From Kineosporia mesophila (lineage in GTDB: Bacteria; Actinomycetota; Actinomycetes; Actinomycetales; Kineosporiaceae), in the NCBI RefSeq assembly GCF_021129235.1, contig NZ_JAJOMA010000023.1, positions 1 through 64,000 on the forward strand: DNA of 64,000 nucleotides, given 5' to 3'. This document shows positions 3,357-20,367 of this stretch, in pieces (position 1 is the first letter of the stretch; every line of letters begins with the position of its first letter). Made by a program: the position numbers and the translations under genes. A model generated the notes under the pieces. That model was given only the letters and a program-made list of their open reading frames with translations. It was not told the origin of the DNA and made no database searches.

Positions 3357-3372
3357 TCAGGCTTTGTTCAGG
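3357..3372 (+). promoter_or_regulatory. Direct-repeat regulator site 1 (TCAGGCTTTGTTCAGG)
   Basis: Two TCAGG half-sites start 11 bp apart, the one-helical-turn spacing of OmpR/PhoB-family tandem sites. It lies between the PIG-L gene and an anonymous plus-strand reading frame and is followed 11 bp later by site 2. A further single TCAGG lies at 3341-3345. Confidence 0.6.
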
Positions 3373-3383
3373 GACCCTTCCCA

Positions 3384-3399
3384 TCAGGAATTGTTCAGA
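3384..3399 (+). promoter_or_regulatory. Direct-repeat regulator site 2 (TCAGGAATTGTTCAGA)
   Basis: Same 11-bp-spaced repeat as the other sites. A GTG codon at 3423 lies 23 bp downstream, the spacing seen for the sites in front of recognised genes. Confidence 0.6.
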
Positions 3400-3422
3400 C
3401 TCTCCGTAACCTGATCACTGTT

Positions 3423-3632
3423 GTGCAGGAACTCAGTGGCGGGGGCCGGGAGCGCACTGTCATGGCCCGGACTGCCCGCCCCAGAGATGTGGAATCGCTT
3501 GCTGGGCAGGTGGTTCTGGAAGGTAGGGGCGGGATCATAACCCGGGCCGCGGTTCCAGCTACGACGACGCTGCCTTGCGGATCGGCCAGTCGAGAGAGTC
3601 GTGTACAAGGCGGTTTCCGGCTCGGGGAGTGA
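3423..3632 (+). CDS. Possible leaderless small ORF or gene relic
   Basis: 69-codon frame opening with GTG 23 bp after regulator site 2. The product (Arg/Gly/Ala-rich, no membrane segment or recognised motif) resembles no family I know and may be the stump of a decayed member of the envelope regulon. It is listed only because its start matches the spacing of the regulated genes elsewhere. It could equally be non-coding. Confidence 0.25.
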   Translation: MQELSGGGRERTVMARTARPRDVESLAGQVVLEGRGGIITRAAVPATTTLPCGSASRESRVQGGFRLGE

Positions 3633-3962
3633 TGAATCCGCTGGCGATCCGTGCGGCCGATGAGCTGCGCTGGCGCACTGCCGGCCGCGGTAGACGCTGG
3701 TACGTCGCCGGCCCGTCCCGGGCCTTACGCCCGCTGGACCGGGCCGGTACCTGGCCGCCATTTCTGCCTCAGAAGGCCTTCTGTAGTAACAGTTCTCGAT
3801 CCATCCGGCCGCGGAAGACGTCCTCGGTGACGGACTGGCCCGCTGTGCCCGGTACTGGCCCACCCTGATCTCGCTCAGGCCGATGGGGCCGGCGGAGGTT
3901 GCACCCATGTTCCAGCGAAATCCCGCTTCCGAGATCTACCCACAGGATCTTGGCTCGGACGT
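3633..3962. other. Intergenic stretch with no recognisable gene
   Basis: About 330 bp between the anonymous frame and the end of the PAP2 gene. Frames on both strands are short, Arg/Pro-rich and without motifs. No IS ends or clear hairpin were seen. It may be decayed coding sequence. Confidence 0.4.
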
Positions 3963-4637
3963 TCAGCCCTCGTTCTTGACGATCGCTGGGGAAGTCCGCC
4001 GTTCGAGTTGCTGCCGTACCAATGACGCGGCCGACATGCAGAGGACGACGAAGAGCCAACCCCCGAGGACGTCGGTGGGCCAGTGGACGACCAGCGCGAC
4101 CCGGCTGGTCCCCACCGCTAGCGCCCATCCCACCGCCAGGACGATGAGCAGGGCCCGGCTCCACCGGCGCTGCAACAGGGGCCGTCCGATCATGATCAGC
4201 AGGGCGGCCACGAATGCGGAGGCCGTGGTGTGGCCGGAGGGGAACGAGGAGCTGGAGATCTGGATCAGCCGCTCGTCCGGCCGCGCCCGGCCGATGAGTT
4301 CGACCACGACGTTCCGGGCCAGGACCGTGAAAAGCATCGCACCCCAGACGAAGAGCGCGTCGCCACGACGGCCCCAGACGAACAGCAGCAACCCCAGGAC
4401 GGTCACCGTCGGGCCCAGGAGACCAATCCCGCCCGTGACCGTCACCCCCTTCATGGTCGTTACCCAGGCCGGGTGGGCCTGGGCGAAGGAGAGGGCGGCG
4501 TCGCTGACCCATCGGTCGCAAGTGGGCAGCGTTGCCGCGGGATCGGAGACCAGTACGGCCAGCAGGACGAAAAGTGCCGCTGCAGTGCCGAATATCAGGG
4601 TAAGGATGGGGCCGGAACGGTGATGGGCCGGCGCCAC
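3963..4637 (-). CDS. PAP2-superfamily membrane phosphatase
   Basis: 224 aa with about six transmembrane segments. All three acid-phosphatase signatures are present in order: GRARPDER (motif 1), PSGHTTAS (motif 2) and SRVALVVHWPTDVLGG (motif 3), giving the catalytic His pair and Arg residues. Family members dephosphorylate lipid phosphates, including undecaprenyl pyrophosphate (PgpB/BcrC type) and phosphatidic acid. It starts with GTG 10 bp after the DedA stop, so the two are co-transcribed. Together with UppP nearby, the context favours a C55-pyrophosphatase or related lipid phosphatase role; substrate is inferred. Confidence 0.88.
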   Translation of the reverse strand: MAPAHHRSGPILTLIFGTAAALFVLLAVLVSDPAATLPTCDRWVSDAALSFAQAHPAWVTTMKGVTVTGGIGLLGPTVTVLGLLLFVWGRRGDALFVWGAMLFTVLARNVVVELIGRARPDERLIQISSSSFPSGHTTASAFVAALLIMIGRPLLQRRWSRALLIVLAVGWALAVGTSRVALVVHWPTDVLGGWLFVVLCMSAASLVRQQLERRTSPAIVKNEG

Positions 4638-4647
4638 CCTGGTCGAT

Positions 4648-5277
4648 TCAGTAATGCCCGGCCTCCTCGCGGCGTCCCCGGCCGCGCGCCCGCAGCAGCT
4701 CGATCGCGACCGGGACGATCGAGATCACTACGATACCGAGCAGGATCAGCTCGACGTGGTCCTTGACGAAGGCGACCTGCCCCAGGAAGTAACCCAGGAG
4801 CGTCACCCCGCTGCCCCACAACACCCCGCCGATCAGGTTGTAGGTGATGAAGGTGCGGTAGTGCATCTGGCTGGCACCGGCGACAACCGGGGTGAAAGTG
4901 CGCACGATCGGGACGAACCGGGCCAGGACGATCGAGCGGGGGCCGTACTTGGCGAAGAATTCTTCCGCGCGGATCAGGTTCTCCTGTTTGAACAGCCGCG
5001 AGTTGGGGCGGCGGAACAACGCCGGGCCAACCTTGCGGCCGAAGAGGTAGCCGAACTGGTCTCCAGCCACCGCGGCGACGGAGATCAGTAGGCACATCAG
5101 CCAGAGCGGCTGGTGCAGGTACGTGCCGTCGGCGATCAGCAGGCCTGCGGTGAACAGCAGCGAGTCACCGGGCAGGAAGAACCCGATCAGCAGGCCGGAC
5201 TCGGCGAACACCACGACCAGGATCCCGAACACCCCGAAAGTGGAGATGAGGTTCTCGGGGGTAAGTATGGAAGGCAT
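4648..5277 (-). CDS. DedA family membrane protein
   Basis: 209 aa from ATG 5277 (GAGG 8 bp upstream; a TTG sits one codon earlier). The hallmark ESGLLIGFFLPGDSLLF appears near residue 30, followed by the F/Y-GRKVG and AKYGPRSIVLARFVPIVRTF segments typical of DedA proteins, and C-terminal membrane helices ending in an Arg/Glu tail. DedA proteins are polytopic; some (UptA) are undecaprenyl-phosphate translocases. It is the first gene of an operon with PAP2, a pairing that suits lipid-carrier recycling. A minus-strand direct-repeat site (5381-5396) lies 103 bp upstream. Confidence 0.88.
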   Translation of the reverse strand: MPSILTPENLISTFGVFGILVVVFAESGLLIGFFLPGDSLLFTAGLLIADGTYLHQPLWLMCLLISVAAVAGDQFGYLFGRKVGPALFRRPNSRLFKQENLIRAEEFFAKYGPRSIVLARFVPIVRTFTPVVAGASQMHYRTFITYNLIGGVLWGSGVTLLGYFLGQVAFVKDHVELILLGIVVISIVPVAIELLRARGRGRREEAGHY

Positions 5278-5380
5278 CAAGCGGTCCTCGTGCTAGTAGA
5301 CGTCGGTGCTCGCGGGTGCCCGGCCGGGAACCTGAGGGGTGGGCTCCCGGCCGGGCGTGGCCCCAGCCTGATGGCCGGAC

Positions 5381-5396
5381 TCTGAACGTGACCTGA
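5381..5396 (-). promoter_or_regulatory. Direct-repeat regulator site 3 (TCAGGTCACGTTCAGA)
   Basis: Read on the minus strand, with half-sites 11 bp apart. It points toward the DedA-PAP2 operon, and lies back-to-back with site 4, which points the other way. Confidence 0.6.
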
Positions 5397-5413: not shown

Positions 5414-5429
5414 TCAGGTCTGGTTCAGG
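5414..5429 (+). promoter_or_regulatory. Direct-repeat regulator site 4 (TCAGGTCTGGTTCAGG)
   Basis: Plus-strand repeat ending 22 bp before the ATG of the truncated response regulator at 5452. No Shine-Dalgarno lies between, consistent with a leaderless transcript. Confidence 0.65.
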
Positions 5430-5451
5430 CGAGGGCGCGGACGCTGCGACG

Positions 5452-5790
5452 ATGGTCTCCATCCCGGTGTCGCCGCGCGTGCTGCTGATCGAGGGTGACG
5501 TGCATCTGGGCGGCGGGATGGTGGCCCTGCTGGCCGAGAACGGTCATCAAGTGGCCTGGGTGCAGTCCGTGGCGCAGGCCCGCTCGGCGATCGAGGGCGC
5601 TACGGTCGATCTGGTCCTGCTCGACCTGGGGCGGCCCGATGGCGACGGGTCTGACCTGTGTGCGCTCCTGCGGTCGCGGCATCCTCAGGTGGTGATGATG
5701 GTCGTTACGGCCCGGTCGAGCGAGGCCGATGCGGTGCGGGTGCTGGACGAAGGCGCGGACGACGTGGTGCTGGGGCCATTCGCTGGGTAA
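5452..5790 (+). CDS. Receiver-only response regulator, probably truncated
   Basis: 112 aa covering just the receiver domain. The phosphoacceptor Asp lies at about residue 58 (LLDLGRPDGDG) and the switch Thr in VVTARSSEAD. The usual Lys before PF is replaced (VVLGPF instead of VxKPF). The frame stops right there, where a winged-helix DNA-binding domain would begin in OmpR-family proteins, so this is a C-terminally truncated paralogue of the regulator at 11471. It might act as a phosphate sink or be a decaying pseudogene. Regulator site 4 lies 22 bp upstream. Confidence 0.7.
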   Translation: MVSIPVSPRVLLIEGDVHLGGGMVALLAENGHQVAWVQSVAQARSAIEGATVDLVLLDLGRPDGDGSDLCALLRSRHPQVVMMVVTARSSEADAVRVLDEGADDVVLGPFAG

Positions 5791-5874: not shown

Positions 5875-5890
5875 TCAGGATCTGTTCAGG
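5875..5890 (+). promoter_or_regulatory. Direct-repeat regulator site 5 (TCAGGATCTGTTCAGG)
   Basis: Plus-strand repeat 58 bp upstream of the glycosyltransferase ATG at 5949. A further single TCAGG lies at 5900-5904. TACATG at about 5909-5914 could be a -10 region. Confidence 0.62.
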
Positions 5891-5948
5891 GGTGCCGGGT
5901 CAGGGTTGTACATGTCTCCGGTATGTCGATGCGAGTGGTGAAACGGTC

Positions 5949-7037
5949 ATGAAGATCCTGCATGTCACCGATACGTTTCTGCCCGTTCTGGGGGGTATTG
6001 AGGTTTTGGTCGACGACCTGTCCCGTAACCAGCGGCGGCGCGGCCTCGAAGCCACCGTGCTGACGGCCACCCCCGGCCCATCGGGCTCCGAGGTGGTCCG
6101 GCTGTCCGGCCGCTTCGCAGGGCTGCGGGAGGCCTTCGCAATGGTTCGTCCCGACGTCGTGCACTGCCACAGCTCGGTTCTCTCGCCGCTGGCCTGGCGG
6201 GCGGCGCGGGAGGCCGGCGCTGCGGGGATCCCGGTGGTGATCACCATGCACTCGATCGTTGCTCCGGGTGGGATGGGTTCTCTGGCGCTGTCTCTGGCCA
6301 CGCGGTTGATCCCGGCCGGGGCCGCGTGGACGGCGGTCAGCGAAATCGCGGCGGCATCCATCCAGTCGATGGTCCCGGACGGTGTGCCCGTCCTTCCCAA
6401 TGGGATCGACGTGAGTGGTTGCCGCCCGGCCGCAGTCGGAGCTTCGGAGGAGCCTACGGTGGTGAGCGTGATGCGCCTGGCCCATCGCAAGCGCCCGCTG
6501 GCCTTTGTCGGGATGCTGGCTTCGATGCGCCGGCAGTTGGGCGACCGGCCCTGGCGGGCGGTGCTGGTGGGGGACGGGCCTCAGGCTCGGGCGGTGGAAA
6601 AACGTGTTAAGGCTGAGGGTTTGATCGATCGGGTGACTCTTGCCGGTCGGCTGGGAAGGGATGAGGTGCTGGAGGTGCTCTCACGGTCCGACCTGTACCT
6701 GGCTCCTTCCCGGTTGGAGGCCTTCGGGCTGGCTGCGCTGGAGGCCCGGTGCAGCGGCCTGCCGGTGATAGCCATGCGCAGCGGTGGGGTGGGCGAGTTC
6801 GTCCGCGACGGAGTGCACGGATACCTGGTGGAGGGCGACGTCGAGATGGCCCGGCGGGCTGCCGATCTGCTGGCTGAGCCGGCCGTGCTGCGGCAGATGG
6901 CCGAGGCCTGTCGCCGGGACCGTCCCGACCTCGACTGGAACGCCACCGTGGCCCGCAGTTTCACCGCCTACCAGCGGGCTTCGGCGTTTTCCCGACCAGG
7001 CGATCAGGCGAAATTCAGGGTGCCGTTGGCAATATGA
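5949..7037 (+). CDS. GT4 family glycosyltransferase
   Basis: 362 aa from ATG 5949, giving the typical GT-B beginning MKILHVTDTFLPVLGGIE. The N-terminal Rossmann domain ends near residue 170 with VLPNGID, a common GT4 donor-domain entry. The C-terminal domain carries VSVMRLAHRKRP, LVGDGP and APSRLEAFGLAALEA, the EX7E nucleotide-sugar motif. It transfers a sugar from a nucleotide donor to an unknown acceptor, probably a lipid or polyisoprenoid-linked one given its neighbours. It overlaps the next gene by 4 bp (ATGA), so translation is coupled to the DprE1-like oxidase. Regulator site 5 lies upstream. Confidence 0.88.
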   Translation: MKILHVTDTFLPVLGGIEVLVDDLSRNQRRRGLEATVLTATPGPSGSEVVRLSGRFAGLREAFAMVRPDVVHCHSSVLSPLAWRAAREAGAAGIPVVITMHSIVAPGGMGSLALSLATRLIPAGAAWTAVSEIAAASIQSMVPDGVPVLPNGIDVSGCRPAAVGASEEPTVVSVMRLAHRKRPLAFVGMLASMRRQLGDRPWRAVLVGDGPQARAVEKRVKAEGLIDRVTLAGRLGRDEVLEVLSRSDLYLAPSRLEAFGLAALEARCSGLPVIAMRSGGVGEFVRDGVHGYLVEGDVEMARRAADLLAEPAVLRQMAEACRRDRPDLDWNATVARSFTAYQRASAFSRPGDQAKFRVPLAI

Positions 7038-8233
7038 GAAACATGGATGAGTTACGGCCGTTGCAGGATGAGGAAATTGCCGAAACCCTGCTGCGGAAAA
7101 ATGCTTCAAGGATCGTTGTGCGGGGATGCGGCACCGCTGGCCAGGATTCCTGGTCGCTGAACGAGGGCACTGGTCTTGACCTGCGCGGGCTCAACGGAGT
7201 GCTCTTCCTGGACCGTCGCAGTGGCCTGGCCGAGGTCGAGGCCGGCGTGACGTTGGGAGCGCTGGCCACCCTCGCCGAGCGAGGCGGATGCGTGCTCCCG
7301 GTCCGGCCCCCTTCTCTCAGGGGCACGGTGGGCGGCGCGATCGCCACGGACTGCTTCGGCGGCAACCACCCGAGCGCCGGGTCGTTCGGTCACCAGGTGC
7401 TCTGGATCGACCTGATGAACGCACGCGGCCGGGTGCATCGCCTCTCGCCGGAGACGACTCCGGAGCGGTTCTGGGCGACCGTCGGCGGGATGGGCCTCAC
7501 CGGAATCATCCTGCGGGCCGGGCTGCGCCTGCAGACTGTGGGTTCTGCGGCCCCGGTGCGCCGGACGGTGCGGGTGGACAGCCTGGACCTGGCGGTGCAG
7601 CAGCTGAACGAGAATGCTTTTTCTGGTGAGAATCTGAACAGCACGGTCTGGACGCAGCGGGGTGGGCGAGGGCTGATGGAATCCGAGCATCAGGTGCAGG
7701 GACAGCGTCTGCCCCGGAGCGCTCGGTGGGGTCAGCGCGAGGGCGTAGGGCGGGACACCCGCCGACGCCTGGCCCGGCTCGGGCAGGCCCTGCACCCGGC
7801 CGAGCTCGGGCAATCCTACCCGGGCCTGTTCGGACTTGTTCGGCATCACTGTGCGATCCCGCTCGGCGCGGACACTACCCTGGCCCGGATCTTCGGGTTG
7901 CTGAAGGCGGCGCGAGTGGGGCCGGTGCTGACGACCTTGCAACGTCTCGGGGCCGGCAATCCGGCTCCCTTATCTTTCCCTCTCCCAGGATGGGCTCTGG
8001 CGCTGAACTTTCCCTCTGGCCGGGCGGGTCTTCCGGCCACGCTCGCCGACGTGGACGCTTTGGTGATGCAGGCCGGTGGACGCCTACATCTGGGCCAGGA
8101 CTCCTGGCTGGACGCGCCCGGCGTGGCGGCGATGTATCCCGGGCTACCGGGCTGGCGCCGGGTGCGGGACGAGATGGATCCCGGCCGCGTCTTCGCCTCG
8201 AACCTGGCAATTCGCACCGGACTGGTGGAGTAG
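7034..8233 (+). CDS. DprE1-like FAD-dependent oxidoreductase
   Basis: 399 aa. The FAD-binding PCMH part holds RGTVGGAIATDCFGGNHPSAGSFG, and FWATVGGMGLTGI matches the DprE1 family closely. The C-terminal FPLPGW, AMYPGLPGW and DPGRVFASN segments are also DprE1 hallmarks. In mycobacteria DprE1 oxidises decaprenylphosphoryl-ribose, the first half of its epimerisation to arabinose. It is about 60 residues shorter than mycobacterial DprE1, mostly in the middle. By eye the positions of Mycobacterium tuberculosis Cys387 and Lys418 are Ala (PGWALALNFP) and Gln (LGQDSW), so the substrate or chemistry may differ. It is followed by a broken DprE2-like gene. Confidence 0.85.
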   Translation: MRNMDELRPLQDEEIAETLLRKNASRIVVRGCGTAGQDSWSLNEGTGLDLRGLNGVLFLDRRSGLAEVEAGVTLGALATLAERGGCVLPVRPPSLRGTVGGAIATDCFGGNHPSAGSFGHQVLWIDLMNARGRVHRLSPETTPERFWATVGGMGLTGIILRAGLRLQTVGSAAPVRRTVRVDSLDLAVQQLNENAFSGENLNSTVWTQRGGRGLMESEHQVQGQRLPRSARWGQREGVGRDTRRRLARLGQALHPAELGQSYPGLFGLVRHHCAIPLGADTTLARIFGLLKAARVGPVLTTLQRLGAGNPAPLSFPLPGWALALNFPSGRAGLPATLADVDALVMQAGGRLHLGQDSWLDAPGVAAMYPGLPGWRRVRDEMDPGRVFASNLAIRTGLVE

Positions 8234-9177: not shown

Positions 9178-9708
9178 CTACCGGTAGAGGCGTGCGCTGG
9201 TTCGGTGGTGGCCCCGTCGTATCAGCGTTCGCCCTTGGTGCTTTTCCCGGCTGAGAGACAACTCCGGACTTCTGGTTTCAGGCGTATGGCCAGCTCGACT
9301 GCTTTGCGGGTGCCGATGACGCTGATGATCCAGTGGGTCTTGGCCACGACCAGAATATGGGTCATTGCCGCACTGTGAATGGCTTTTCGCAGGCCGGGGT
9401 CGTCTGTGTAGGCCTCGATCCCGGTGACCGGGCCGGCCGGGACGCCGACGTCCCGGGTTTGCTCGATCAGCTGCCGGGCCAGCGGGCTTGGTTACGAAGC
9501 CGATGTCATCCGGGACGCCCGCGGCACGCATCCGGGCGGGCTCACCGGCCCAGGACTCCGGCAGATACCGGCGGCGTCCGATCAGGACGTGCCTGGCGCT
9601 GGCTATGTAGGTCAGATGGACTGCGAACTGATAGTTCTCGATCCGTCCAGTGATCCCGGAGTACTGCCGCCGGGTCCTGTCGGTGGCCGTGGACGGGGCA
9701 GGTTGCAC
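9178..9708 (-). pseudogene. IS701-family transposase relic
   Basis: Residues about 10-75 of the minus-strand frame (RRQYSGITGRIENYQFAV, GFVTKP) align with the intact-looking part of the IS701-type transposase at 50-51 kb (RQYSGTAGRIENCQIGV...EFATKP). Downstream, similarity moves to another frame (IEAYTDDPGLRKAI, resembling the DEVYG...LR region), so the gene is frameshifted and lacks both ends. It separates the DprE cluster from uppP. Confidence 0.78.
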
Positions 9709-9763: not shown

Positions 9764-10591
9764 TCAGGGGAGGGCGGGGAGAGCTCCCACGGTGACCAGG
9801 GCGATCAGTGCAAGTCCGAGGACGATGCGGTAGATCACGAACGGGCGGAAGCTGCCGTGGCTGAGATACCGGAGCAGCCAGGCGATCACGGCGTAGCCGA
9901 TGACGAAGGCGATCAGGGTGGCGGCGATGGTGGGACCCCAGGCCGGGGTGTTACTGCCGCCGATCTTGGTGAGTTCCAGCAGTCCGGAGGCGAGCACGGC
10001 GGGGACTGCCAGCAGGAAGGCGTAGCGGGCGGCGGCCTCGCGGGAGTAGCCCAGAAGCAGACCGGCGCTGATCGTGCCGCCGGAACGCGAGACTCCGGGG
10101 ATCAGGGCCAGGCACTGGGCCAGGCCGATGGTCACGGCGTGCGGGAGGTTGAGATCCTGCATGGTGCGCTCGCCGCGGCCGAGCTTGTCGGCGATGCCGA
10201 GGATCACGCCGAAGACGATCAGCGTCAGGGCGATGACCCGCAGGTCGCGGAAGGTGGTTTCGATGGTGCTCTGCAGCGCGAGGCCGATCAGGCCGATCGG
10301 GAGAGTGCCGAGGATGACGTACCAGCCGATCCGGGCCGCCGGCTCGCGGCGCAGGGCGGGGCGGCGCAGGGACTCCAGCCACGTGGTGACGATTTCCCAG
10401 ATGTCCTTGCGGAAGTAGACCAGGACGGCGGTTTCGGTGCCGAGCTGGGTGACCGCGGTGAAGGCGGCGCCCGGGTCCTGCCAGCCGAGCAGCGCCGAGA
10501 CGATCCGGACGTGGCCGCTGGAGGAGATCGGGAGGAACTCGGTCAGGCCTTGAACGATGCCCAGGATGATGGCCTGGCCCCAGCCGATCAC
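9764..10591 (-). CDS. uppP: Undecaprenyl-diphosphatase UppP (BacA)
   Basis: 275 aa, normal length, about eight membrane segments. Both family signatures are intact: QGLTEFLPISSSGH (catalytic Glu/Ser/His cluster) at residues about 14-27 and LIPGVSRSGGT at about 165-175 with the essential Arg. The enzyme releases phosphate from undecaprenyl pyrophosphate on the outer face of the membrane, recycling the carrier for peptidoglycan and other polymers; overexpression gives bacitracin resistance. Its start overlaps the COG4705 gene by 4 bp, so both depend on the promoter at 11.4 kb with regulator site 6. Confidence 0.95.
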   Translation of the reverse strand: MIGWGQAIILGIVQGLTEFLPISSSGHVRIVSALLGWQDPGAAFTAVTQLGTETAVLVYFRKDIWEIVTTWLESLRRPALRREPAARIGWYVILGTLPIGLIGLALQSTIETTFRDLRVIALTLIVFGVILGIADKLGRGERTMQDLNLPHAVTIGLAQCLALIPGVSRSGGTISAGLLLGYSREAAARYAFLLAVPAVLASGLLELTKIGGSNTPAWGPTIAATLIAFVIGYAVIAWLLRYLSHGSFRPFVIYRIVLGLALIALVTVGALPALP

Positions 10592-11388: not shown

Positions 11389-11411
11389 GAGCGAAAGACT
11401 GGGTTCACGAC

Positions 11412-11427
11412 TCTGAACGAAGCCTGA
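11412..11427 (-). promoter_or_regulatory. Direct-repeat regulator site 6 (TCAGGCTTCGTTCAGA)
   Basis: Minus-strand repeat ending 23 bp before the COG4705 ATG at 11388, in the interval divergent from the OmpR-type regulator gene (ATG 11471). Only the minus-strand gene is correctly positioned relative to it. Confidence 0.65.
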
Positions 11428-12163: not shown

Positions 12164-13497
12164 TCCTGAAGCGTCTGTGGTCCAGATTTCAACCGAGGAC
12201 GCTCTCGGGTCGCCTTGCCCTCGGCGGAGTGTTCTGGATCGCTGCCTGGGCCGTGGTGCTCCTGCTGGCCTTCAACATCCTGCTCGCCAGTGTGCTGGCC
12301 AGCCAGGTGGACGACGCCCTGCGGGCGCGGGCCCAGGCGGTCGCGGCCACGCTGGTCTACAGCGACGGAAGGCTGACCGCGCTGAACGGGGGCAACAATA
12401 GCGACGAGGCCCTGGACGTCGGCACCTCGGTCTATCTCGGCGCCACCCTGTTCGAAGGCACCCAGTTGTCCGCGGAAATGCGGTCCGACCTGCTCCAGAA
12501 GAGCGAGGTGATCGAGGACAGCGAGCGCTACGGCCCACTGCGCTACCTGGCGTATCCGATCTTGGACGATCGCGGCGGCCAGGTGGGGACGATCGTGGTG
12601 TCCAGCAACATCGACATCCGCAACCACACGGTACGGGTGATCGCTGCAACGTCACTCGTGTTCATCGTCCTCACATTGGTTTTCACCTTTTTCGCCCTCC
12701 GGGCCACGATCGTCCGTGCTTTGACCCCGGTGAGGGCCATGGGGACGCGGGCCGCCGCCTGGAGCGAGGAAGACCTGGATAAACGGTTTGATCCGGGCGC
12801 GGGCCCGCGTGAGCTCCGAGAGCTGTCGGGCACCCTGAACGGGCTGCTCGAACGCATCGCGGCGGCCTTGCGACACGAGCGCAATTTCACGGCTGAGTTG
12901 TCGCATGAACTGCGCACTCCTCTGGCCCATCTGCATGCCGAGGTCGACCTGCTGGCGGTGGGGGAGCCGCTCGGGACGCTGGAGAGGGAGAACCTGCTGA
13001 CTTCGATCCGGCGGCTGGAGGGCCTGGTCGAAACTGCTTTGGTACCGGCCCGGATCGATCACAACGCGGCGCCCGGACTGGGCCGGGTGAGTGATGCTCT
13101 GGAGGGTTTGCGGGCCCCGGCGTCGGGTTCGGCCGAACTCGTCGTCGCCGGAGATACCGGCATCACCCTGGCGGTGGAGAGCGACATCGTCCGTCGGGCC
13201 CTGAATCCTTTGCTGGAGAATGCCTTCCGCTATGCCTCCCACGAGGTGCGGATCGACGTCTCGGCGGCCAACGGGCACGCCTTCATCGAGGTCAGTGACG
13301 ATGGTGGACGTTTGGGCGTGGCGGATCTGGAGCGGGTCTTCGAGCCCGGTTTTCGCGCGGATGCGGCCGACGGGCACCCGGGTGCCGGCCTCGGTCTCGC
13401 GCTCACCCGCCGGATCTGCCGGGCGGCCGGGGGAGACGTGACGGCGCGGGTCGAGGACGGGCGCACGGTGTTCGTCCTGCGCCTGCCCAGCATCTGA
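12160..13497 (+). CDS. Membrane sensor histidine kinase partner of the OmpR regulator
   Basis: 445 aa. Membrane segment 1 at about residues 22-46, an extracytoplasmic sensor of about 110 residues, membrane segment 2 at about 165-187, HAMP linker, HisKA box NFTAELSHELRTPLAHLHAE (His near residue 248), then N-box LNPLLENAFRYA and G-boxes (DDGGRLG, GAGLGLALTRR). The ligand is unknown; the size of the extracytoplasmic loop is typical of envelope-stress kinases. Cotranslated with the regulator. Confidence 0.92.
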   Translation: MILKRLWSRFQPRTLSGRLALGGVFWIAAWAVVLLLAFNILLASVLASQVDDALRARAQAVAATLVYSDGRLTALNGGNNSDEALDVGTSVYLGATLFEGTQLSAEMRSDLLQKSEVIEDSERYGPLRYLAYPILDDRGGQVGTIVVSSNIDIRNHTVRVIAATSLVFIVLTLVFTFFALRATIVRALTPVRAMGTRAAAWSEEDLDKRFDPGAGPRELRELSGTLNGLLERIAAALRHERNFTAELSHELRTPLAHLHAEVDLLAVGEPLGTLERENLLTSIRRLEGLVETALVPARIDHNAAPGLGRVSDALEGLRAPASGSAELVVAGDTGITLAVESDIVRRALNPLLENAFRYASHEVRIDVSAANGHAFIEVSDDGGRLGVADLERVFEPGFRADAADGHPGAGLGLALTRRICRAAGGDVTARVEDGRTVFVLRLPSI

Positions 13498-13514: not shown

Positions 13515-13530
13515 TCAGGCCGTTTTCAGG
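13515..13530 (+). promoter_or_regulatory. Direct-repeat regulator site 7 (TCAGGCCGTTTTCAGG)
   Basis: Plus-strand repeat ending 22 bp before the mini-DedA ATG at 13553. TACCTT at 13541-13546 is a good -10 hexamer that would put the transcription start at or next to the ATG. Confidence 0.68.
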
Positions 13531-13552
13531 GGCCGAAACCTACCTTGAGAGA

Positions 13553-13780
13553 ATGACCTTCGCACTGACGGTGCTGATGTCCCAGCTGGTCCCGCTGGCC
13601 GTGCTGCTCCTGGTCGCGGTGATCTTCGCCGGGACCGGCCTGTTGTTCGGGTTCTTTTTACCTGGCGAATCAATCCTTTTCGCCGCCGGTCGGCTGGCCG
13701 CGGTGGTGGTCTTCCGGCCGCGCCGGCGGGCTCAGGGCGCGACCGATCGCCCGGTGGAGAGGGAGCTGGTTCAGGTATGA
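13553..13780 (+). CDS. Miniature DedA-like membrane protein (internal deletion)
   Basis: 75 aa. The first 45 residues are a DedA start with the hallmark GLLFGFFLPGESILFAAG; the remainder jumps to an Arg-rich tail like a DedA C-terminus. This fits an in-frame internal deletion of about 130 codons from a full DedA. The stop overlaps the next ATG (ATGA), so translational coupling to the flippase-like gene has survived the deletion. It cannot act as a full DedA translocase; it may be kept for coupling, or as a small membrane peptide. Regulator site 7 lies 22 bp upstream. Confidence 0.72.
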   Translation: MTFALTVLMSQLVPLAVLLLVAVIFAGTGLLFGFFLPGESILFAAGRLAAVVVFRPRRRAQGATDRPVERELVQV

Positions 13781-14799
13781 GTCAATCCGTGATGCTCCGG
13801 CCACCCGGCGAGGCGCCCAAGCAGCTTCGAGGATCGGGTCGCCGGACCCTCCTGCACCTGACCGCCGTGACCGTGGGCGGCGGCATCGTGGCCGGGCTCT
13901 TCCCGTCGTTCATGGGAACCCAATGGGGGGCCATCGGTTCCGCCCTCGCTGACGTCCCCGTCCTCTGGCTCGTAGGCCTTCTGGTGCTCTGGATCGCCGG
14001 GCTGGGGCTGCACAGCATCACCTTGTCCGCAGCCCTGCCGGGGCTCAGCCATCGCCGGGCCCTGATGCTCAGCCTTACCGGGAGCGCGGTTTCGAACGTA
14101 CTGCCGCTGGGTGGTGCGGCCGGGATCGCTCTGAACTACCGGATGAGCCGCCGCTGGGGTTTCGCCCCGCCCGCCATCGCGGCCTTCACCGTCGTCGCCA
14201 ATGTCTGCGACGTCGTCATGAAGCTGCTCCTGCCCTTGGCCCTGGTGCCTCTCGTCGTGGGCGGCTTTCTGCCGCAGGCTTTCGGCTCGCCTCGGGTTCT
14301 GGTGGTTGTGGCCGGCCTGATGGCTCTGGTCGCGGTCGGGGCCGTCGTGCTGCTGACCCGTGAACACTTGCTGCACCGTCTTTCTGAGAAGGTCTTGTGG
14401 TTGCGCAGGCCGTTGACGGTGGCCGAGAAGGTGGCCTCGGCCGCCCGTCGTGTCCTGATCCAGGCCTGGCCGCGGCTGAGTGCGGGCATGGGTCTCTACA
14501 CGCTGTTCCTGCTGCTCCTGCTGGTGGCCTGCCTGCACGCCGGCGGAGCGCACATTCCCTTGGCGCTGGTCTTCGCGGCGTTCTGCGGCGAGCGCTTGCT
14601 GACAATGATCGGCCTGACTCCGGCCGGTCTCGGGTTCGTGGAGCTCGGCCTGGCCGGTGTTCTGATGCTTGCGCCCGGTGTGGTGGGCGTGGACGTGGCT
14701 TCGGGAATTCTGCTGTACCGGCTGCTGACCGTGGGGCTGGAGATTCCGGTGGGTGGGGCGCTACTGGCCTTCTGGACGTGGAGCAGTTCGCGGTCCTAG
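13777..14799 (+). CDS. Flippase-like / lysylphosphatidylglycerol synthase-type membrane protein
   Basis: 340 aa, about eight membrane segments and no soluble aminoacyl-transfer domain, so it corresponds to the integral-membrane half (MprF flippase-like, UPF0104/COG0392 family). Recognisable blocks are GSAVSNVLPLGGAAG (about residue 105) and GERLLTMIGLTPAGLGFVELGL (about 265-285), typical of the family. It probably moves a lipid or polyprenyl-linked substrate across the membrane. It overlaps the mini-DedA by 4 bp and shares its promoter. Confidence 0.85.
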   Translation: MSQSVMLRPPGEAPKQLRGSGRRTLLHLTAVTVGGGIVAGLFPSFMGTQWGAIGSALADVPVLWLVGLLVLWIAGLGLHSITLSAALPGLSHRRALMLSLTGSAVSNVLPLGGAAGIALNYRMSRRWGFAPPAIAAFTVVANVCDVVMKLLLPLALVPLVVGGFLPQAFGSPRVLVVVAGLMALVAVGAVVLLTREHLLHRLSEKVLWLRRPLTVAEKVASAARRVLIQAWPRLSAGMGLYTLFLLLLLVACLHAGGAHIPLALVFAAFCGERLLTMIGLTPAGLGFVELGLAGVLMLAPGVVGVDVASGILLYRLLTVGLEIPVGGALLAFWTWSSSRS

Positions 14800-14901: not shown

Positions 14902-16680
14902 TCAGCCCACCTCGTACAGCCGGACTCCGTCGACGGCGATCGGGGTGAAGTTACTGATCACCCAATCCTGGATCTGGCGTCCAGATGCGCCCAGCGTGCC
15001 GCCGGGTATGAACCAGTGCAGCTGATGGGACTCGGTGAGTTGGATGAATTCGTCAAGGGTGGGCACCGGATCGTCACCCTTGTAGCCGCCGATTGCGAGG
15101 ACCGGCCGGCCCAGCGAGAGCTGGTAGGCGGAGGCTGATCGAGCGCCCAAAGCTCCGGCACTCCAGCGGTAGTGTTGGTCTGCTACCCGCAGTCGTTCCA
15201 GTACGGTGCTTGAAACAGGACGGTATCCTCCGGTTTCGCCCTGAAGGAAGCCGTTGGTCCAGACCTCGATCTGCGAGGTCCTGGCACCTCGGCCGGCTCC
15301 GGCCATCGGGTTGGCACCGGTGTGCGGGGCGCTGATTGTGGCCAGGCAGGAGAGCGCAGGGGCAACTAGGACAGCGGCGATTGCTGCGTAGGCTGCCACC
15401 GGGTTCCTTTGGCCGAGGTGCAGGATGACCAGGGCGACGATGCCGAGAGTGCATACCAGGGCGGCGACCGCCCAGTCGTGGCGGCCGGTGAGAAGCAGGA
15501 TCGAGACGGCCAGGGCGCTCGTCAGGGCCAAAGCCAGACCGCCGGTGTAGCGAACCGCCTTGAGCCACTGGTATTCGGCGACCAGCCAGGCTCCGATTCC
15601 TACCAGGGCAGCGAAGGCAGGAGCAAGAACAACGGTGTAATAGGAGTGGAAGATGCCCGCCATGGCTGCGAAAGTGGTTGCGGTTACGCCGATCCAGATG
15701 AACCACAGCAGCAGGGCTGCTCGAATGTTCCTACGGGCTGGATGATACTGGCTCAGGTACCAGGCCAGGCCGGCGAGGATCAGGGCGGCGGGGACGAACC
15801 AGGTGACCTCGGTGAGAAGGTTGGTCCGCCCGATCCGGGCGATGTTGGTGGCTCGGAGACCTGAGTTCTCCGGATTGGACTGGTTGCTGCCGGTGATCCT
15901 TGCGACTCCGTTGTAGCCAAGGGCGAGCTGGAGCACAGAATTGACCGGGGATCCGCCAATCCAGGGTCGGGAGGAAGCCGGCCAGAGTTCGACGACGGCC
16001 ACCCACCAGCCTCCGGCGAACAGCGTGGCCAGGGCGCCTGCCAATACCTGAGCGAAGCGTTTCATGAGGGGAGCCTGGGCGAAGATCAGGTAGCTCAGGG
16101 CGAGGGCGGGTAGAACCAGCAGGGCGGCCAGCATCTTGGTGAGGAATCCGAGGCCGATCATGGAGCCGGCCAGGACCAGCCAGGCCGTGGGGCGCCTGCT
16201 TTCGCAGGCTCGCAGAGTGGAGTACGCGGAAAACAGGAGCAGTGTGGTCAAGAGGGCGTCGGGGTTGTTGTAGCGAAACATCAAAACCGTGACCGGAGTC
16301 AGAGCGAACAATACGCCGGCCAGGACAGCTGGCCAGGCCCTTCGGGTGGTGCGGTGAACGCAGCCGTAGAGCAAGGCGACGGCCATGACGCCTTCCAGAG
16401 CCTGAGGCAAAAGAACGCTCCAGGGCGAAAGTCCGAAGAGTTTTGTCATCAAGATCATTGGCCACAGTGACAGCGGCGGTTTGTCCACCGTCAGGGCATT
16501 CGAAGCGTCTAGTGAGCCGAAGAACATGGCCTTCCACGACTGCGCCCCGGCCTGCACGGCGGCTGAATAGTAGGCGTTGGCCAGACCGGAATTGCTCAGC
16601 TGCCAGGTGAACAGCGCGGCGCTGGCGGCCAAGAGAGCCAGTAAAGGCAGACGATCGCGGGAGAGACGCAAAGGAGGCAC
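14902..16680 (-). CDS. GT39-family polyprenyl-phosphate-sugar glycosyltransferase
   Basis: 592 aa with about 12 membrane helices and a soluble C-terminal domain. The first external loop carries DASNALTVDKPPLSLWP, containing the acidic pair and VDKPPL signature of PMT/ArnT/YkcB-type GT39 enzymes; FRYNNPDALLTTLLL follows in the next loop. The C-terminus (IGGYKGDDPVPTLDEF...LHWFIPGG) matches the tail of YkcA/B-like proteins. Such enzymes transfer a sugar from a polyprenyl-phosphate donor to a lipid, protein or glycan outside the membrane. It starts with GTG 21 bp from regulator site 8, without a Shine-Dalgarno. Confidence 0.9.
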   Translation of the reverse strand: MPPLRLSRDRLPLLALLAASAALFTWQLSNSGLANAYYSAAVQAGAQSWKAMFFGSLDASNALTVDKPPLSLWPMILMTKLFGLSPWSVLLPQALEGVMAVALLYGCVHRTTRRAWPAVLAGVLFALTPVTVLMFRYNNPDALLTTLLLFSAYSTLRACESRRPTAWLVLAGSMIGLGFLTKMLAALLVLPALALSYLIFAQAPLMKRFAQVLAGALATLFAGGWWVAVVELWPASSRPWIGGSPVNSVLQLALGYNGVARITGSNQSNPENSGLRATNIARIGRTNLLTEVTWFVPAALILAGLAWYLSQYHPARRNIRAALLLWFIWIGVTATTFAAMAGIFHSYYTVVLAPAFAALVGIGAWLVAEYQWLKAVRYTGGLALALTSALAVSILLLTGRHDWAVAALVCTLGIVALVILHLGQRNPVAAYAAIAAVLVAPALSCLATISAPHTGANPMAGAGRGARTSQIEVWTNGFLQGETGGYRPVSSTVLERLRVADQHYRWSAGALGARSASAYQLSLGRPVLAIGGYKGDDPVPTLDEFIQLTESHQLHWFIPGGTLGASGRQIQDWVISNFTPIAVDGVRLYEVG

Positions 16681-16701
16681 ACGGCACTGTTTCCCGGGGT
16701 G

Positions 16702-16717
16702 TCTGACATCAACCTGA
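16702..16717 (-). promoter_or_regulatory. Direct-repeat regulator site 8 (TCAGGTTGATGTCAGA)
   Basis: Minus-strand repeat 21 bp upstream of the GT39 GTG. It is paired with oppositely oriented site 9, 15 bp away, so a single divergent region serves both genes. Confidence 0.62.
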
Positions 16718-16732: not shown

Positions 16733-16748
16733 ACAGGTCATTGTCAGA
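16733..16748 (+). promoter_or_regulatory. Direct-repeat regulator site 9 (ACAGGTCATTGTCAGA)
   Basis: Plus-strand repeat 23 bp upstream of the second COG4705 gene. Its first half-site deviates at one base (ACAGG), but the 11-bp spacing is kept. Confidence 0.55.
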
Positions 16749-16771
16749 GTCCCGGCCCGATCTTAAGTTCC

Positions 16772-18016
16772 ATGACGACCTACCGGACGCCCCTGGCCTC
16801 GCGCACCGACGCGCGCCAGCTGCTGAACAAGGTTCCCGAGATCACGATCTGGTTCTGGATCATCAAGATCCTCTGCACCACGGTCGGGGAGAGCTTCGCC
16901 GACTGGATCAACATGACCCTCGGTGTCGGCCTGACCAACACCGCGCTGATGTTCACCGTCGTGCTGGCCGTGATCCTGGCGGTGCAGCTGCGCCTGTCCC
17001 GGTACGTACCAGCCGTCTACTGGCTGACCGTCGTGGTCGTCAGCATCACCGGAACCCTCTACACCGATATCCTCACCGACAGCTCGGGCGTACCGCTCAA
17101 GGTCAGCACGAGCATCTTCGCCGCCGTCCTGGCCGTGGTCTTCGGTATCTGGTATGCCCGTGAGCGCACCCTGTCCATCCACACCATTGTCACCCTGCCC
17201 CGGGAAGCTTTCTACTGGCTCGCTGTTCTGGTGACCTTCGCGCTCGGTACCGCCGCGGGCGACTGGACCCTGGAACTGACCGGCTGGGGCCCGGGCAAGT
17301 CGGTCCTGCTGCCGGCCGGTCTGATCGCGATCGTCGCGGTCTGCTGGCGCGCCGGTGCGCAGCCGGTCCTGGCCTTCTGGCTCGCGTACATCCTGACCCG
17401 CCCGCTCGGGGCCAACATCGGTGACTTCCTGGCCCTACCGAAGGCGGAGCAGGGTCTGGGCCTGGGCACTGCCCTGACCAGTGTGCTGTTCCTGGCCGCG
17501 ATCGCCGCCACCGTCATCTACCTGACCCGCACCCGAGCCGACATCATCACCCACGAGGCCCCGCCCCGTCCCGCCAACCCACGCGGAGAGCGGATGGCCC
17601 TGGGCGTGTACGTGATCGCCGCCGTCTCGACCGCGGTTCTGCTGCACCACACCTCTGGCCTGCCGCACACCTCGCCCCTGGCCGAGGGCGAAGGACCGGC
17701 CGTCTCGACCGTGCAGCTGACCCCCGCCCAGGCGACCGCGAAGTTCCCGTCGGCTGACATCGCCACCTTGAAGTCGATCGGCCAGGATCTGCAGGCCAAA
17801 GTGGCGGCCAGCGATCAGGCCGGGGCCCTGACCCGGGCCAAGGACCTCGAAACCACCTGGGACCAGTACCAGCCGCAGCTGCAACCGCTGGACGGCACGG
17901 CCTGGACCTTCATCGACGTGGAGATCGACCACGTGCTCACCGCGGTCCGGTCACCGAACCCGGACCCGAAGGCCGAGACGGCGGCGCTGAGCGCCCTGGT
18001 CACGACCCTCAGTTGA
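16772..18016 (+). CDS. COG4705-type membrane protein with extra C-terminal domain
   Basis: 414 aa. Residues 1 to about 260 are a paralogue of the protein at 10588: KVPEITIWFWIIKI, FYWLAVLVTFALGTAAGDWT and RPLGANIGD recur in the same order. A cytoplasmic HEAPPRPANPRGER linker leads to one more membrane helix (about 272-290) and a roughly 120-residue, probably extracytoplasmic domain rich in Ala/Asp/Lys helices that I do not recognise. A sensor or partner-binding role for this domain is only a guess. No Shine-Dalgarno before the ATG; regulator site 9 lies 23 bp upstream and a strong terminator follows. Confidence 0.82.
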   Translation: MTTYRTPLASRTDARQLLNKVPEITIWFWIIKILCTTVGESFADWINMTLGVGLTNTALMFTVVLAVILAVQLRLSRYVPAVYWLTVVVVSITGTLYTDILTDSSGVPLKVSTSIFAAVLAVVFGIWYARERTLSIHTIVTLPREAFYWLAVLVTFALGTAAGDWTLELTGWGPGKSVLLPAGLIAIVAVCWRAGAQPVLAFWLAYILTRPLGANIGDFLALPKAEQGLGLGTALTSVLFLAAIAATVIYLTRTRADIITHEAPPRPANPRGERMALGVYVIAAVSTAVLLHHTSGLPHTSPLAEGEGPAVSTVQLTPAQATAKFPSADIATLKSIGQDLQAKVAASDQAGALTRAKDLETTWDQYQPQLQPLDGTAWTFIDVEIDHVLTAVRSPNPDPKAETAALSALVTTLS

Positions 18017-18345: not shown

Positions 18346-18382
18346 GCGGCCTCAGGTCACCTGGGGGTCCGGAACCGGGACT

Positions 18383-18582
18383 GCGTTGGTGTTTCTTGCC
18401 GTGGTGACGGAACTGACCTCCACCCTGCTGCCGGCTCCGATCGCCCCCGGACGCTCGCGACCCGGTTCTGGAGCGAGTCCTCAGCGATCAACTACGGCGC
18501 CGCAGCACCTGATGCCGTTCTGGTGATCATGCTCTCCGCCCCGGCGGCAGTGTTGCTGGCCCGTAAGGCGGGTGCGAGGTGA
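18383..18582 (+). pseudogene. Iron-type ABC permease C-terminal relic
   Basis: ALVFLAVVTELTSTLL in one frame, then after a frameshift near 18455 TLATRFWSESSAINYGAAAP and a terminal helix. This is the end of FbpB/ThiP-like binding-protein-dependent permeases (VFLxVxKELxxTLLL...LAxxxWxxxSExxYxxAAP). The stop overlaps the GTG of the ATPase relic, preserving operon structure. Confidence 0.7.
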
Positions 18583-18905
18583 GCGCCGGGCTGAGCGTGC
18601 GTGGCCTGACCAAGAGCTACGGCCCGGCAACGGTCTTGGCCGGTGTCGATCTGGAGGTGGCCGAAGGCGCCCTCACCGCGCTGATCGGAAGATCCGGCAG
18701 TGGAAAAATCACTCTGCTGCGCCTGATCTCGGGTTTCGAGGCAGCCGATCGCGGCGTCACTCAGATGGACGGGCGGGATGTTTCCGGGCTGGCGCCGCAT
18801 CGGCTACGTCACGCAGGAAGGCACTCTCTTTCCGCATCTGAGTGCGGCCGCTAATGTGCCCTTTGGGCTGCCTCGACGTGACTCGAAGGCCGTTTCCCAA
18901 GCCGG
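18579..18905 (+). pseudogene. Frameshifted ABC transporter ATPase relic (ferric-iron type)
   Basis: Begins with GTG overlapping the permease stop. LTKSYGPATVLAGVDL and Walker A GRSGSGKITLL are readable, but the Walker A Ser/Thr after Lys is Ile, which should abolish ATP binding. Near 18795 the similarity moves frame to IGYVTQEGTLFPHLSAAANV, the Q-loop of FbpC/PotA-type ATPases, and ends by 18905. Signature motif and Walker B are missing. With the permease relic this is a dead transporter. Confidence 0.8.
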
Positions 18906-18945
18906 GGGGAGAGCACGGGTTTCTCCGTGGTCGGCGCCGCTCTCG

Positions 18946-19677
18946 CTAGGGTTGTGCCTTGAGGCGGATGAGGCTGATGCCGTCGCGAACGGTGAGAACT
19001 ATCTGCTCCACGCGACGGTCGCGCCGAACCGTAGCGTTGAAAGCGTGCACGGCGAGCATGTTCACCTGGTCCTCGTCGTCCTGCGGATCCAGCCCACCGT
19101 GCAGCGTGTTGTCCACCACGATGAGGCCGTGCGGAGCCAGTTTCGGGACCACGGCTTCGAAATAGGACGAGTATCCGCTTTTCTCGGCATCGATGAAGAC
19201 CAGGTCGAACGGCCCCGGAAGCTCGTCCACGACCGGCAGAGCTGGGCCTACGCGCAGATCGATCTGCTGCCCGCGGGGCGAGGAGGCGAAGTGCTGAGCG
19301 GCGATACGCGCGGTGTCAGGGTCGATCTCACAGGTGGTGATGCGCCCGTCGCCGGGCATCGCTTCGGCCATCGCCAGCGCCGAATACCCGGTGAAGGTAC
19401 CGATCTCGAGGATGTTCCGCGGTTGCCCGAGATGCACCAGACAGGCCAGGAACTGGCCCTGGGTGGATCCGGACATCATGAAGGCATCAGCCACGAAGTC
19501 CCGCGTGTCGGCCGCGACCTGAGCCAGCAGAGCGCTTTCCTCGCTGGTCTGGGCCTCGGCGTACTGCTCGATCCGCGGCTCGACCATGGGCCGGCGGCGT
19601 CCCAGTACCATTCCGGCGGCGCGCCGGACACGCTGGGGGAAGCCAGCTCGGTCTGGTAGGGAAGACGGCGGTGTCAC
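18946..19677 (-). CDS. Class I O-methyltransferase (COMT-like family 3)
   Basis: 243 aa from the GTG at 19677, which overlaps the DedA stop (GTGA); the frame is open further upstream inside dedA. SAM motif I is ILEIGTFTGYSALAMAEA, the acidic hairpin follows as TTCEIDPD, and FDLVFIDAEKSGY and GLIVVDNTLHGG mark the metal-dependent catechol-type methyltransferase family. Substrate unknown. Translation is coupled to DedA, so it sits in the regulon through site 10. Confidence 0.88.
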   Translation of the reverse strand: MTPPSSLPDRAGFPQRVRRAAGMVLGRRRPMVEPRIEQYAEAQTSEESALLAQVAADTRDFVADAFMMSGSTQGQFLACLVHLGQPRNILEIGTFTGYSALAMAEAMPGDGRITTCEIDPDTARIAAQHFASSPRGQQIDLRVGPALPVVDELPGPFDLVFIDAEKSGYSSYFEAVVPKLAPHGLIVVDNTLHGGLDPQDDEDQVNMLAVHAFNATVRRDRRVEQIVLTVRDGISLIRLKAQP

Positions 19678-20327
19678 GAAGCATGCTCCCTGCGCAGACG
19701 ATTGCGACGGAAAGAACGACGGATGAGAAGGGTGAGCCCCACGACCAGCAATCCGATCAGGACCACGTTGCTGATGGTGCTGACATACCCGCCGACGGTC
19801 TCCCACTGAGAGCCGACCGCGTAGCCGGCGGCGACCAAGGCCGAGTTCCAGATCGCGCTGCCGAGGGCGGTCCAGACGGAGAAGGTCAGCAGCGGCATCT
19901 TCTGGGCCCCGGCCGGGAGTGAAATGAGGCTACGAACACCGGGTACGAGGCGTCCAAAAAAGACCGAAGCCCGGCCGTGTTGCTGGAACCAGTCCGAGGC
20001 GGACCGTAAATCCTCGGCGTCCAGCAAGGGAACCCGGTCCAGTAGCGAGATGGCCCGGTCAAGGCCCAGCACTGCCCCCAGACCGTAGAAAATCCAGGCC
20101 CCCGCCACCGACCCCAGGGTGGCCAGCACCAACACCCACACCACCGACAGCTCGCCCTGCTGGGCGAGGAACCCGGCCAGCGGCAGGATCACCTCGCTGG
20201 GCACCGGGGGTATGACTGTTTCCAAAAGGGTCATGGCCCCGACGCCGACCTCGCCCAGTGCCCCGATCACATCGGCGCCCAGACCGGTGATGCCGGTCAG
20301 CTCCGCAGTAGCTCCCTCGTTCGCCAT
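19674..20327 (-). CDS. DedA family membrane protein (second full-length copy)
   Basis: 217 aa from ATG 20327; a longer start at 20360 would overlap regulator site 10 and is disfavoured. TLLETVIPPVPSEVILPLAGFLAQ is the hallmark loop of the YqjA/YghB-like DedA branch, followed by GRASVFFGRLVPGVRSLISLPAG, the conserved G-R-x-x-P-x-x-R segment. Four or more membrane helices and a basic Arg-rich C-terminus. Likely a lipid or undecaprenyl-phosphate translocase by family. Coupled to the methyltransferase. Confidence 0.88.
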   Translation of the reverse strand: MANEGATAELTGITGLGADVIGALGEVGVGAMTLLETVIPPVPSEVILPLAGFLAQQGELSVVWVLVLATLGSVAGAWIFYGLGAVLGLDRAISLLDRVPLLDAEDLRSASDWFQQHGRASVFFGRLVPGVRSLISLPAGAQKMPLLTFSVWTALGSAIWNSALVAAGYAVGSQWETVGGYVSTISNVVLIGLLVVGLTLLIRRSFRRNRLRREHAS

Positions 20328-20351
20328 GAGGCAGAACTCTTCCGCGGCCTG

Positions 20352-20367
20352 CCTGAACACTTCCTGA
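20352..20367 (-). promoter_or_regulatory. Direct-repeat regulator site 10 (TCAGGAAGTGTTCAGG)
   Basis: Minus-strand repeat 24 bp upstream of the second dedA ATG. It is the last site of the series seen in the window. Confidence 0.65.

Follow-up and report, generated by a model that had tools for sequence, protein, structure and literature searches.

What reads the 16-bp direct repeats that crowd into some 17 kb of a Kineosporia mesophila contig, and which genes do they control? The stretch analysed, called the window below, comprises positions 1 to 64,000 of contig NZ_JAJOMA010000023.1 (assembly GCF_021129235.1). An initial annotation had listed ten such repeats (TCAGG-N6-TCAGR) between positions 3357 and 20367, and had proposed that the OmpR-type regulator encoded at 11471 controls all of the envelope and lipid-carrier genes among which they lie. 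Comparison of sequences within this genome and across its relatives leads us to a similar, narrower view. The repeats are very probably tandem binding sites of the OmpR/PhoB-type regulator at 11471, and of a paralogue on another contig (C42), serving class II activation of an envelope regulon.

The repeat is far too frequent in the window to be incidental: ten exact matches, where 100 dinucleotide shuffles average 0.38 and never exceed 3. All ten listed sites were given with correct coordinates and strands; nine are exact, and the one at 16733 begins with ACAGG, as had been reported. An eleventh site, 7004(+), was absent from that list. The eleven sites are as follows, with the spacer and hexamer discussed below.

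3357..3372, plus strand: direct repeat lacking a -10 hexamer 10 bp downstream, left out of the promoters
3384..3399, plus strand: direct repeat with an imperfect hexamer (CCTGAT) 10 bp downstream, doubtful
5365..5396, minus strand: predicted promoter of DedA1, and of the PAP2 gene if the two form an operon; repeat 5381-5396, N10, CAGGCT, then an 87-nt hairpin leader
5414..5445, plus strand: repeat, N10, GACGCT; leaderless ATG 5452
5875..5906, plus strand: repeat, N10, CAGGGT; leaderless ATG 5912 of a 9-codon open reading frame (ORF)
7004..7035, plus strand: repeat, N10, CAATAT; leaderless ATG 7043
11396..11427, minus strand: repeat 11412-11427, N10, CAGTCT; leaderless ATG 11388; lies 43 bp ahead of the divergent regulator gene as well
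13515..13546, plus strand: repeat, N10, TACCTT; leaderless ATG 13553
16686..16717, minus strand: repeat 16702-16717, N10, AACAGT; precedes the GT39-type gene
16733..16764, plus strand: ACAGG variant repeat, N10, GATCTT; leaderless ATG 16772; repeat identical in the genus-mate G003
20336..20367, minus strand: repeat 20352-20367, N10, AAGAGT; leaderless ATG 20327

Nine of the eleven sites share one layout, in which half-sites 11 bp apart are followed, after exactly 10 bp, by an nAnnnT hexamer. These nine are recovered by a model of the window sites (repeat, N10 and nAnnnT, with at most two mismatches in the repeat); 3357 and 3384 lie outside it because no fitting hexamer stands 10 bp downstream. 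A start codon follows the hexamer by 5-8 nt in eight of the nine, and in seven of these eight it opens the gene or gene fragment itself. The exception is 5875, where the leaderless ATG at 5912 opens a nine-codon ORF (MSPVCRCEW, 5912-5941, with two cysteines) ahead of the GT4 gene at 5949. The sole site without a close start is 5381(-), with 87 nt between the hexamer and the ATG of DedA1. This leader holds a strong hairpin (z -3.56; inverted repeat 5318-5356) that looks like an insertion, because in three genomes of the genus (G001, G003 and G004) no more than 6-7 nt separate the hexamer from the start of the DedA1 homologue. Tandem half-sites 11 bp apart that end 10 bp upstream of a -10 hexamer are the geometry of PhoB, whose repeat is likewise placed 10 bp upstream of the -10. 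To judge from the sequence, the shared layout is as expected for a PhoB-like activator.

The proposed genome-wide scan also gave counts above chance. Across the whole genome (7.78 Mb in 61 contigs) there are 37 exact repeats, ten of them in the window, against 9 for the reversed pattern, so the bare repeat is partly a chance feature elsewhere in the genome and it is the promoter context that separates the likely real sites. With N10 and the hexamer added, exact matches number 11 (8 in the window) against none reversed, and 35 against 5 when one mismatch is allowed. The statement that the sites occur only in these 17 kb is true of the window and does not extend to the genome: the same design stands at C36:3239 (before a DedA gene), C42:16077 (before a COG4705 gene, one mismatch) and C12:331110 (before a LytR-CpsA-Psr gene). 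Of the 27 exact repeats outside the window, the surroundings of ten were inspected (C12 twice, C16:66821, C23 twice, C33, C36, C45, C56 and C61:109888). Seven of these, that is, all except C36, C12:331110 and C33, lack a hexamer that fits at 10 bp. At C33:5080(-) the hexamer fits but no start codon is near, and the site extends into the end of a gene that by eye encodes a DeoR-like regulator. Some of the hexamer-less repeats are followed by ORFs (at 7 nt on C45, at 0 nt at C12:291244), which do not match window proteins.

The design becomes sharper when it is sought around relatives of the 11471 regulator. GTDB genomes were scanned with an alignment of six regulator sequences and the best 80 loci (45-55% identity, 1.138 Mb) were kept. 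In these, TCAG[GA]-N6-TCAG[GA] occurs 77 times, compared to 0-16 times at each other spacing from 0 to 20; nAnnnT lies at offset 10 after the repeat in 59 of the 77, and none of 25 other offsets has it in more than 6; and ATG is most frequent 22-24 nt past the repeat. Counting letters over the 59 sites yields the consensus C-G-[T/G]-TCAGG-N4-GTTCAGG, with a TG one base before the hexamer, that is, an extended -10. The full model with at most one mismatch finds 92 matches (1 reversed) in 64 of the 80 loci. Leaderless starts are again the rule: at 74 of the 92 sites an ORF of 60 codons or more begins 3-11 nt after the hexamer.

What these 74 genes encode supports a regulon of envelope and lipid-carrier genes, as originally suggested; DUF347, DedA, PAP2, UppP and glycosyltransferase genes are found downstream of sites. 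Pfam assigns DUF347 to 44 of the 74, which makes COG4705/DUF347, a four-repeat membrane protein, the commonest target, followed by VTT/DedA (7), PAP2 (4) and the regulator itself (4). Single cases include PMT_2 (GT39), LPG_synthase_TM, DUF2231 and MurT among others, and some downstream genes, such as Uma2, have no envelope link. The whole genomes behind 20 chosen loci hold 31 patterns in 15 genomes and none reversed, with no pattern in the other five; these counts are no test of association, because the genomes were chosen for holding the regulator. Thirty of these pattern loci were followed into the next gene, assigned by blast, Pfam, earlier scans and eye: ten lead to DUF347, three to DedA, two to the regulator, one each to PAP2, GT39, DUF2231, GT2 and an MGDG_synth-type glycosyltransferase, two to phosphoesterase-like genes (one by Pfam, one by eye), and eight are unclear or cut off.

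Several lines of evidence tie the promoter to this particular clade of regulators. A model match lies within 1.5 kb of 34 of the 80 clade regulators and of none of 25 other OmpR-type regulators (p 1.4e-5), around which even the bare repeat without hexamer was seen once. When presence of the motif is mapped onto a tree of 111 regulators, 15 changes are needed, compared to a mean of 34 in shuffles; one branch gathers 69 rows with the motif and 17 without, and the 25 controls fall on the other side. The records in this tree place the two-component system in Streptomyces, Frankia, Geodermatophilaceae, Actinoallomurus, Cellulomonas and Thermoleophilia. A second sample comprised 148 genomes spread over the class, 22 of which have a regulator match at E <= 1e-44. 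A strict leaderless pattern, derived from the first sample and ending in ATGA or GTGA, occurs in 15 of them: 14 of the 22 with a close regulator and 1 of the 126 without (Fisher p 3.1e-13, uncorrected for kinship). With the genome of the window excluded, the pattern is found in 13 of 21 regulator-bearing genomes. Fifteen of the 19 strict matches lie within 5 kb of the regulator, and the reversed pattern gives none in the 148 genomes. In a further set of 58 relatives, DUF347 scores above its cut-off in 7 and a close regulator is present in 5, with both in 4 (Fisher p 3.9e-4, again uncorrected for kinship). A regulator of the 11471 clade is thus a likely reader, given linkage, co-occurrence, the sites upstream of the regulator in four relatives and the tree.

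In G019, two divergent promoters read ACAGG-N4-GTACAG and keep the N10, the hexamer and the close start, and the regulator sits on a long branch; this suggests, from the sequences, that operator and regulator drifted together. At the G019 locus (L076, on G019:C12), genes for UppP, the kinase, the regulator and several DedA and DUF347 proteins are densely clustered and use the drifted ACAGG-N4-GTACAG operator. In G020, an exact repeat with N10, hexamer and close ATG (L172:3264) stands between a 39% identical regulator and a divergent gene, which has no Pfam match and looks secreted. The motif may reach beyond the 11471 clade.

The protein itself has the architecture of the OmpR/PhoB family, a receiver and a Trans_reg_C winged helix, and Pfam finds no other domain. 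D57, T85 and K107 are invariant in the six regulator sequences and are presumably the conserved phospho-acceptor Asp, the Thr and the Lys of the receiver. The partner kinase has HisKA and HATPase_c domains, and its H249 is conserved in all 69 aligned kinases. In the sensor region of these kinases an acidic residue is found at D86 in 91% and at E99 in 80%, which might reflect cation binding, although this is not decisive; a conserved W (94%) and Y (93%) are replaced by S90 and R154 in the window kinase. The C42 paralogue is 88% identical to the 11471 regulator, and the divergent COG4705 gene next to it is preceded by a site that differs in one letter. The presumed recognition helix, ENTLDQYVTRARRKL, is identical in the two proteins, so they cannot be told apart by site. 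The kinase beside the paralogue (L064:16865-18191) gives two overlapping partial matches; the gene is broken or the sequence contains an error. As for a curated family, no NCBIfam model scored above its cut-off among the 25 of 91 matches listed.

How such a regulator would act can be outlined by analogy; binding, activation and any dependence on phosphorylation are what we infer from the sites, their geometry, the predicted leaderless starts, the target classes and the co-occurrence. Two monomers would sit head to tail on (C)GTTCAGG half-sites 11 bp apart, just upstream of the -10 box. The phosphorylated regulator, as a head-to-tail dimer over the -35 position, would activate a housekeeping-type -10 promoter, recruiting RNA polymerase as a class II activator does, in the manner of PhoB. 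Most transcripts would begin at or next to the start codon, yielding leaderless mRNAs. Induction would extend to COG4705/DUF347, DedA flippases, the PAP2 and UppP carrier phosphatases and glycosyltransferases with presumed polyprenyl-phosphate donors, with the regulator itself as a further target in some relatives.

Some observations weigh against this account. The 80 loci were picked by similarity; 16 of them have no site (some on short contigs), at 18 of the 92 sites no 60-codon ORF begins within 3-11 nt of the hexamer, and the -10 has a weak consensus. The tree comes from a quick FastTree run, and the flanks compared were of unequal length (1.5 kb for controls, up to 8 kb otherwise). In the second sample, G174 carries the strict pattern without a close regulator and 8 of the 22 regulator-bearing genomes lack it; moreover the samples overlap, the promoters of G105 and G153 recurring letter for letter at L086 and L134. 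G023, G028 and G050 have DUF347 but no close regulator, and G053 has the regulator but no DUF347. Within the window, the sites at 3357 and 3384 depart from the promoter design. Finally, four genus-mates without a close relative of the regulator (G001, G002, G004 and G005) have the design upstream of LytR-CpsA-Psr (LCP) genes, and two of them, G001 and G004, have it upstream of DedA as well. The original proposal is supported in so far as a regulator of the 11471 clade is a likely reader. That this regulator controls every site does not follow, in view of the misfit of 3357 and 3384, the 88% identical paralogue and the motif in genus-mates without a close relative.

The genus-mates raise the most serious alternative, namely that throughout the genus the motif is read by a different OmpR-family regulator, one belonging to the core genome, and that its use by the 11471 regulator is later, overlapping or redundant. 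The repeat with N10 and hexamer precedes LCP genes in G000 (this genome) and in G001, G002, G004 and G005, four of these five genomes lacking a close 11471 relative. The LCP gene of this genome (L068:9106-10785, supported by Pfam, with its site on C12 near 331110) adjoins another regulator-kinase pair, whose regulator is 33% identical to that at 11471; the sites of the genus-mates are on L161, L162, L164 and L166. Only G003 among five genus genomes has a close 11471 orthologue, and it carries four repeats within 3.6 kb beside it; the repeats of COG4705a and COG4705b are identical in the window and in G003, with the following spacer changed. We consider this alternative unlikely as a general explanation, since the leaderless promoter tracks the 11471 clade across the 148 genomes (14/22 compared to 1/126), the LCP sites are not clearly leaderless, and the LCP-side regulator differs by eye in its presumed recognition helix. 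A second reader of overlapping specificity is nonetheless likely for the LCP and DedA sites, because genus-mates without a close 11471 relative keep the design there. In G001, a DUF3500 gene follows DedA (L163:1083-2336) and has its own ACAGG-N6-TCAGA repeat without a hexamer at 10 bp.

Known systems with similar repeats provide the other candidates. The PhoB/PhoP regulons share an OmpR/PhoB-family regulator, head-to-tail half-sites, the 11-bp period and the GTTCA core, the PHO box being given as GtTCAccnnnn in the part of PMC6754071 available to us. That the repeats are PHO boxes of PhoP or RegX3 is nevertheless very improbable. The half-sites end in GG or GA instead of CC; in the 80 loci TCACC has no peak at N6 (26, 2, 4, 26 and 2 at N4-N8) whereas TCAGG does (3, 2, 70, 5 and 2), so the GTTCACC half-site is not that of these loci; the targets are COG4705, DedA, PAP2 and others, mostly leaderless; and no phosphate-uptake family is among the 25 of 35 families listed for the 74 downstream genes. 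PolR of Microlunatus phosphovorus, an actinobacterial two-component regulator, also uses direct repeats (GTTCAC-N5-GTTCaC), with another half-site and polyphosphate/phosphate targets, as far as the same source describes it (PMC6754071). Direct repeats of 8 bp spaced by 3 bp are quoted for MtrA in Corynebacterium (cited in a section of PMC7380067); the regulator here scores 146.1 bits against the MtrA model, whose cut-off is 300. A SARP-type activator (winged helix plus BTA domain) would also place direct repeats at 11- or 22-bp spacing close to the -10, AfsR repeats lying between -35 and -10, and the afsS promoter has a -10 of CACTGT and a -35 of TTCAGC (all from an excerpt of PMC10936776). 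We give this idea hardly any credence: SARP sites leave 8 bp from the 3' repeat to the -10 according to that excerpt, compared to 10 bp in 59 of 77 here, and the gene co-inherited with the motif encodes a receiver and winged-helix protein without a BTA domain. It is just as implausible that the repeats are a compositional accident or the -35 element of an alternative sigma factor. Sigma-70-type genes, ECF by our reading, do lie at 101-1033 and on C42; the shuffled and reversed controls exclude chance, and a tandem of 11-bp period ahead of TGn-nAnnnT is in keeping with an activator acting at a housekeeping -10. The site published for CutR of Streptomyces, TAWATAAA, is different (PMC12802291, in part). 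MprA stays a candidate for the identity of the regulator; the papers listed for it showed no site definition for comparison at the level of the listing.

Around the sites, the window holds the following genes.

3963..4637, minus strand: PAP2 phosphatase (PF01569), probably in an operon with DedA1 by adjacency
4648..5277, minus strand: DedA1 (VTT domain, PF09335), ATG 5277
5452..5790, plus strand: receiver-only response regulator fragment (PF00072)
5949..7037, plus strand: GT4 glycosyltransferase (PF00534), ATG 5949
7043..8233, plus strand: DprE1-like FAD oxidoreductase (DprE1 model 251.4 bits, below the 500-bit cut-off)
9764..10591, minus strand: UppP/BacA undecaprenyl-pyrophosphatase (PF02673), overlapping COG4705a
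10588..11388, minus strand: COG4705/DUF347 membrane protein a (PF03988)
11471..12163, plus strand: OmpR/PhoB-family response regulator, the proposed reader (PF00072 81.4 bits, PF00486 66.8 bits)
12160..13497, plus strand: sensor histidine kinase (HisKA and HATPase_c)
13553..13780, plus strand: 75-aa DedA N-terminal fragment (74% identity over 50 residues to the intact C36 DedA)
13777..14799, plus strand: flippase-like membrane protein (LPG_synthase_TM, PF03706)
14902..16680, minus strand: GT39-type glycosyltransferase (PMT_2, YkcB_C), leaderless GTG 16680, with a presumed polyprenyl-phosphate donor
16772..18016, plus strand: COG4705/DUF347 membrane protein b (domain match)
19674..20327, minus strand: DedA2 (best NCBIfam model UptA, 112.2 bits, below the 300-bit cut-off)

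UppP and COG4705a are probably one operon, because the genes overlap; the 11412 site before them is conserved in G003 and, with one change, on C42. The design precedes all three DUF347 genes found in this genome, of which two are in the window and one is on C42, and three of its eight VTT genes, so that the regulon takes in some DedA members and not others. The locus seems to have decayed in part, given three gene fragments (the receiver-only regulator at 5452-5790, a DDE_5 transposase piece at 9178-9708 and the DedA N-terminus at 13553-13780); C36 holds an intact DedA homologue, whose promoter follows the design of the 13515 site before the DedA fragment.

The prominence of COG4705/DUF347 leads to the question of the signal. 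In 36 aligned DUF347 proteins, four G[E/T/A]-x-x-x-D motifs are accompanied by invariant K, E, D and W residues; by eye, this suggests a transporter with an ion or polar substrate site. A literature search found no paper on COG4705, and a name for the system may exist in subscription literature. DUF347 appears together with UppP elsewhere, as it does here. Three paralogous UppP-DUF347 operons are among the genes up-regulated under lead stress in an array compilation, which calls DUF347 a potential metal transporter (PMC4531530), and one gene group on IncP plasmids, the mmf genes, lists a UppP and two DUF347 genes (PMC4914505). Those plasmids were found in Variovorax, and no such repeat is mentioned in the parts of the two papers available to us. 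Our leading guess for the signal, a tentative one that is weakly inferred, is a toxic metal or the harm that it does to the envelope. The resemblance to heavy-metal systems goes only so far: the regulator scores 143 bits against the CzcR/SilR/CopR model TIGR01387 (cut-off 279.2) and the kinase 151.5 bits against TIGR01386 (cut-off 292.55), both below the cut-offs, which speaks against metal sensing and places the regulator outside that subfamily.

For the biology of the group, a scannable promoter signature is gained for a widespread actinobacterial two-component system. It is quite possible, if short of probable, that the system governs an undescribed phylum-wide stress regulon of Actinomycetota, in which COG4705/DUF347 would be the main effector, acting with DedA flippases and carrier phosphatases in the recycling of polyprenyl-phosphate carriers or in the sequestration of metals at the surface, and in which regulator and operator would have co-evolved while the rigid leaderless frame stayed fixed. 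The drifted sites of G019 offer a natural test of such joint change. The orphan family COG4705/DUF347 is placed in one regulon with DedA, PAP2, UppP and glycosyltransferases, and its function thereby becomes testable.

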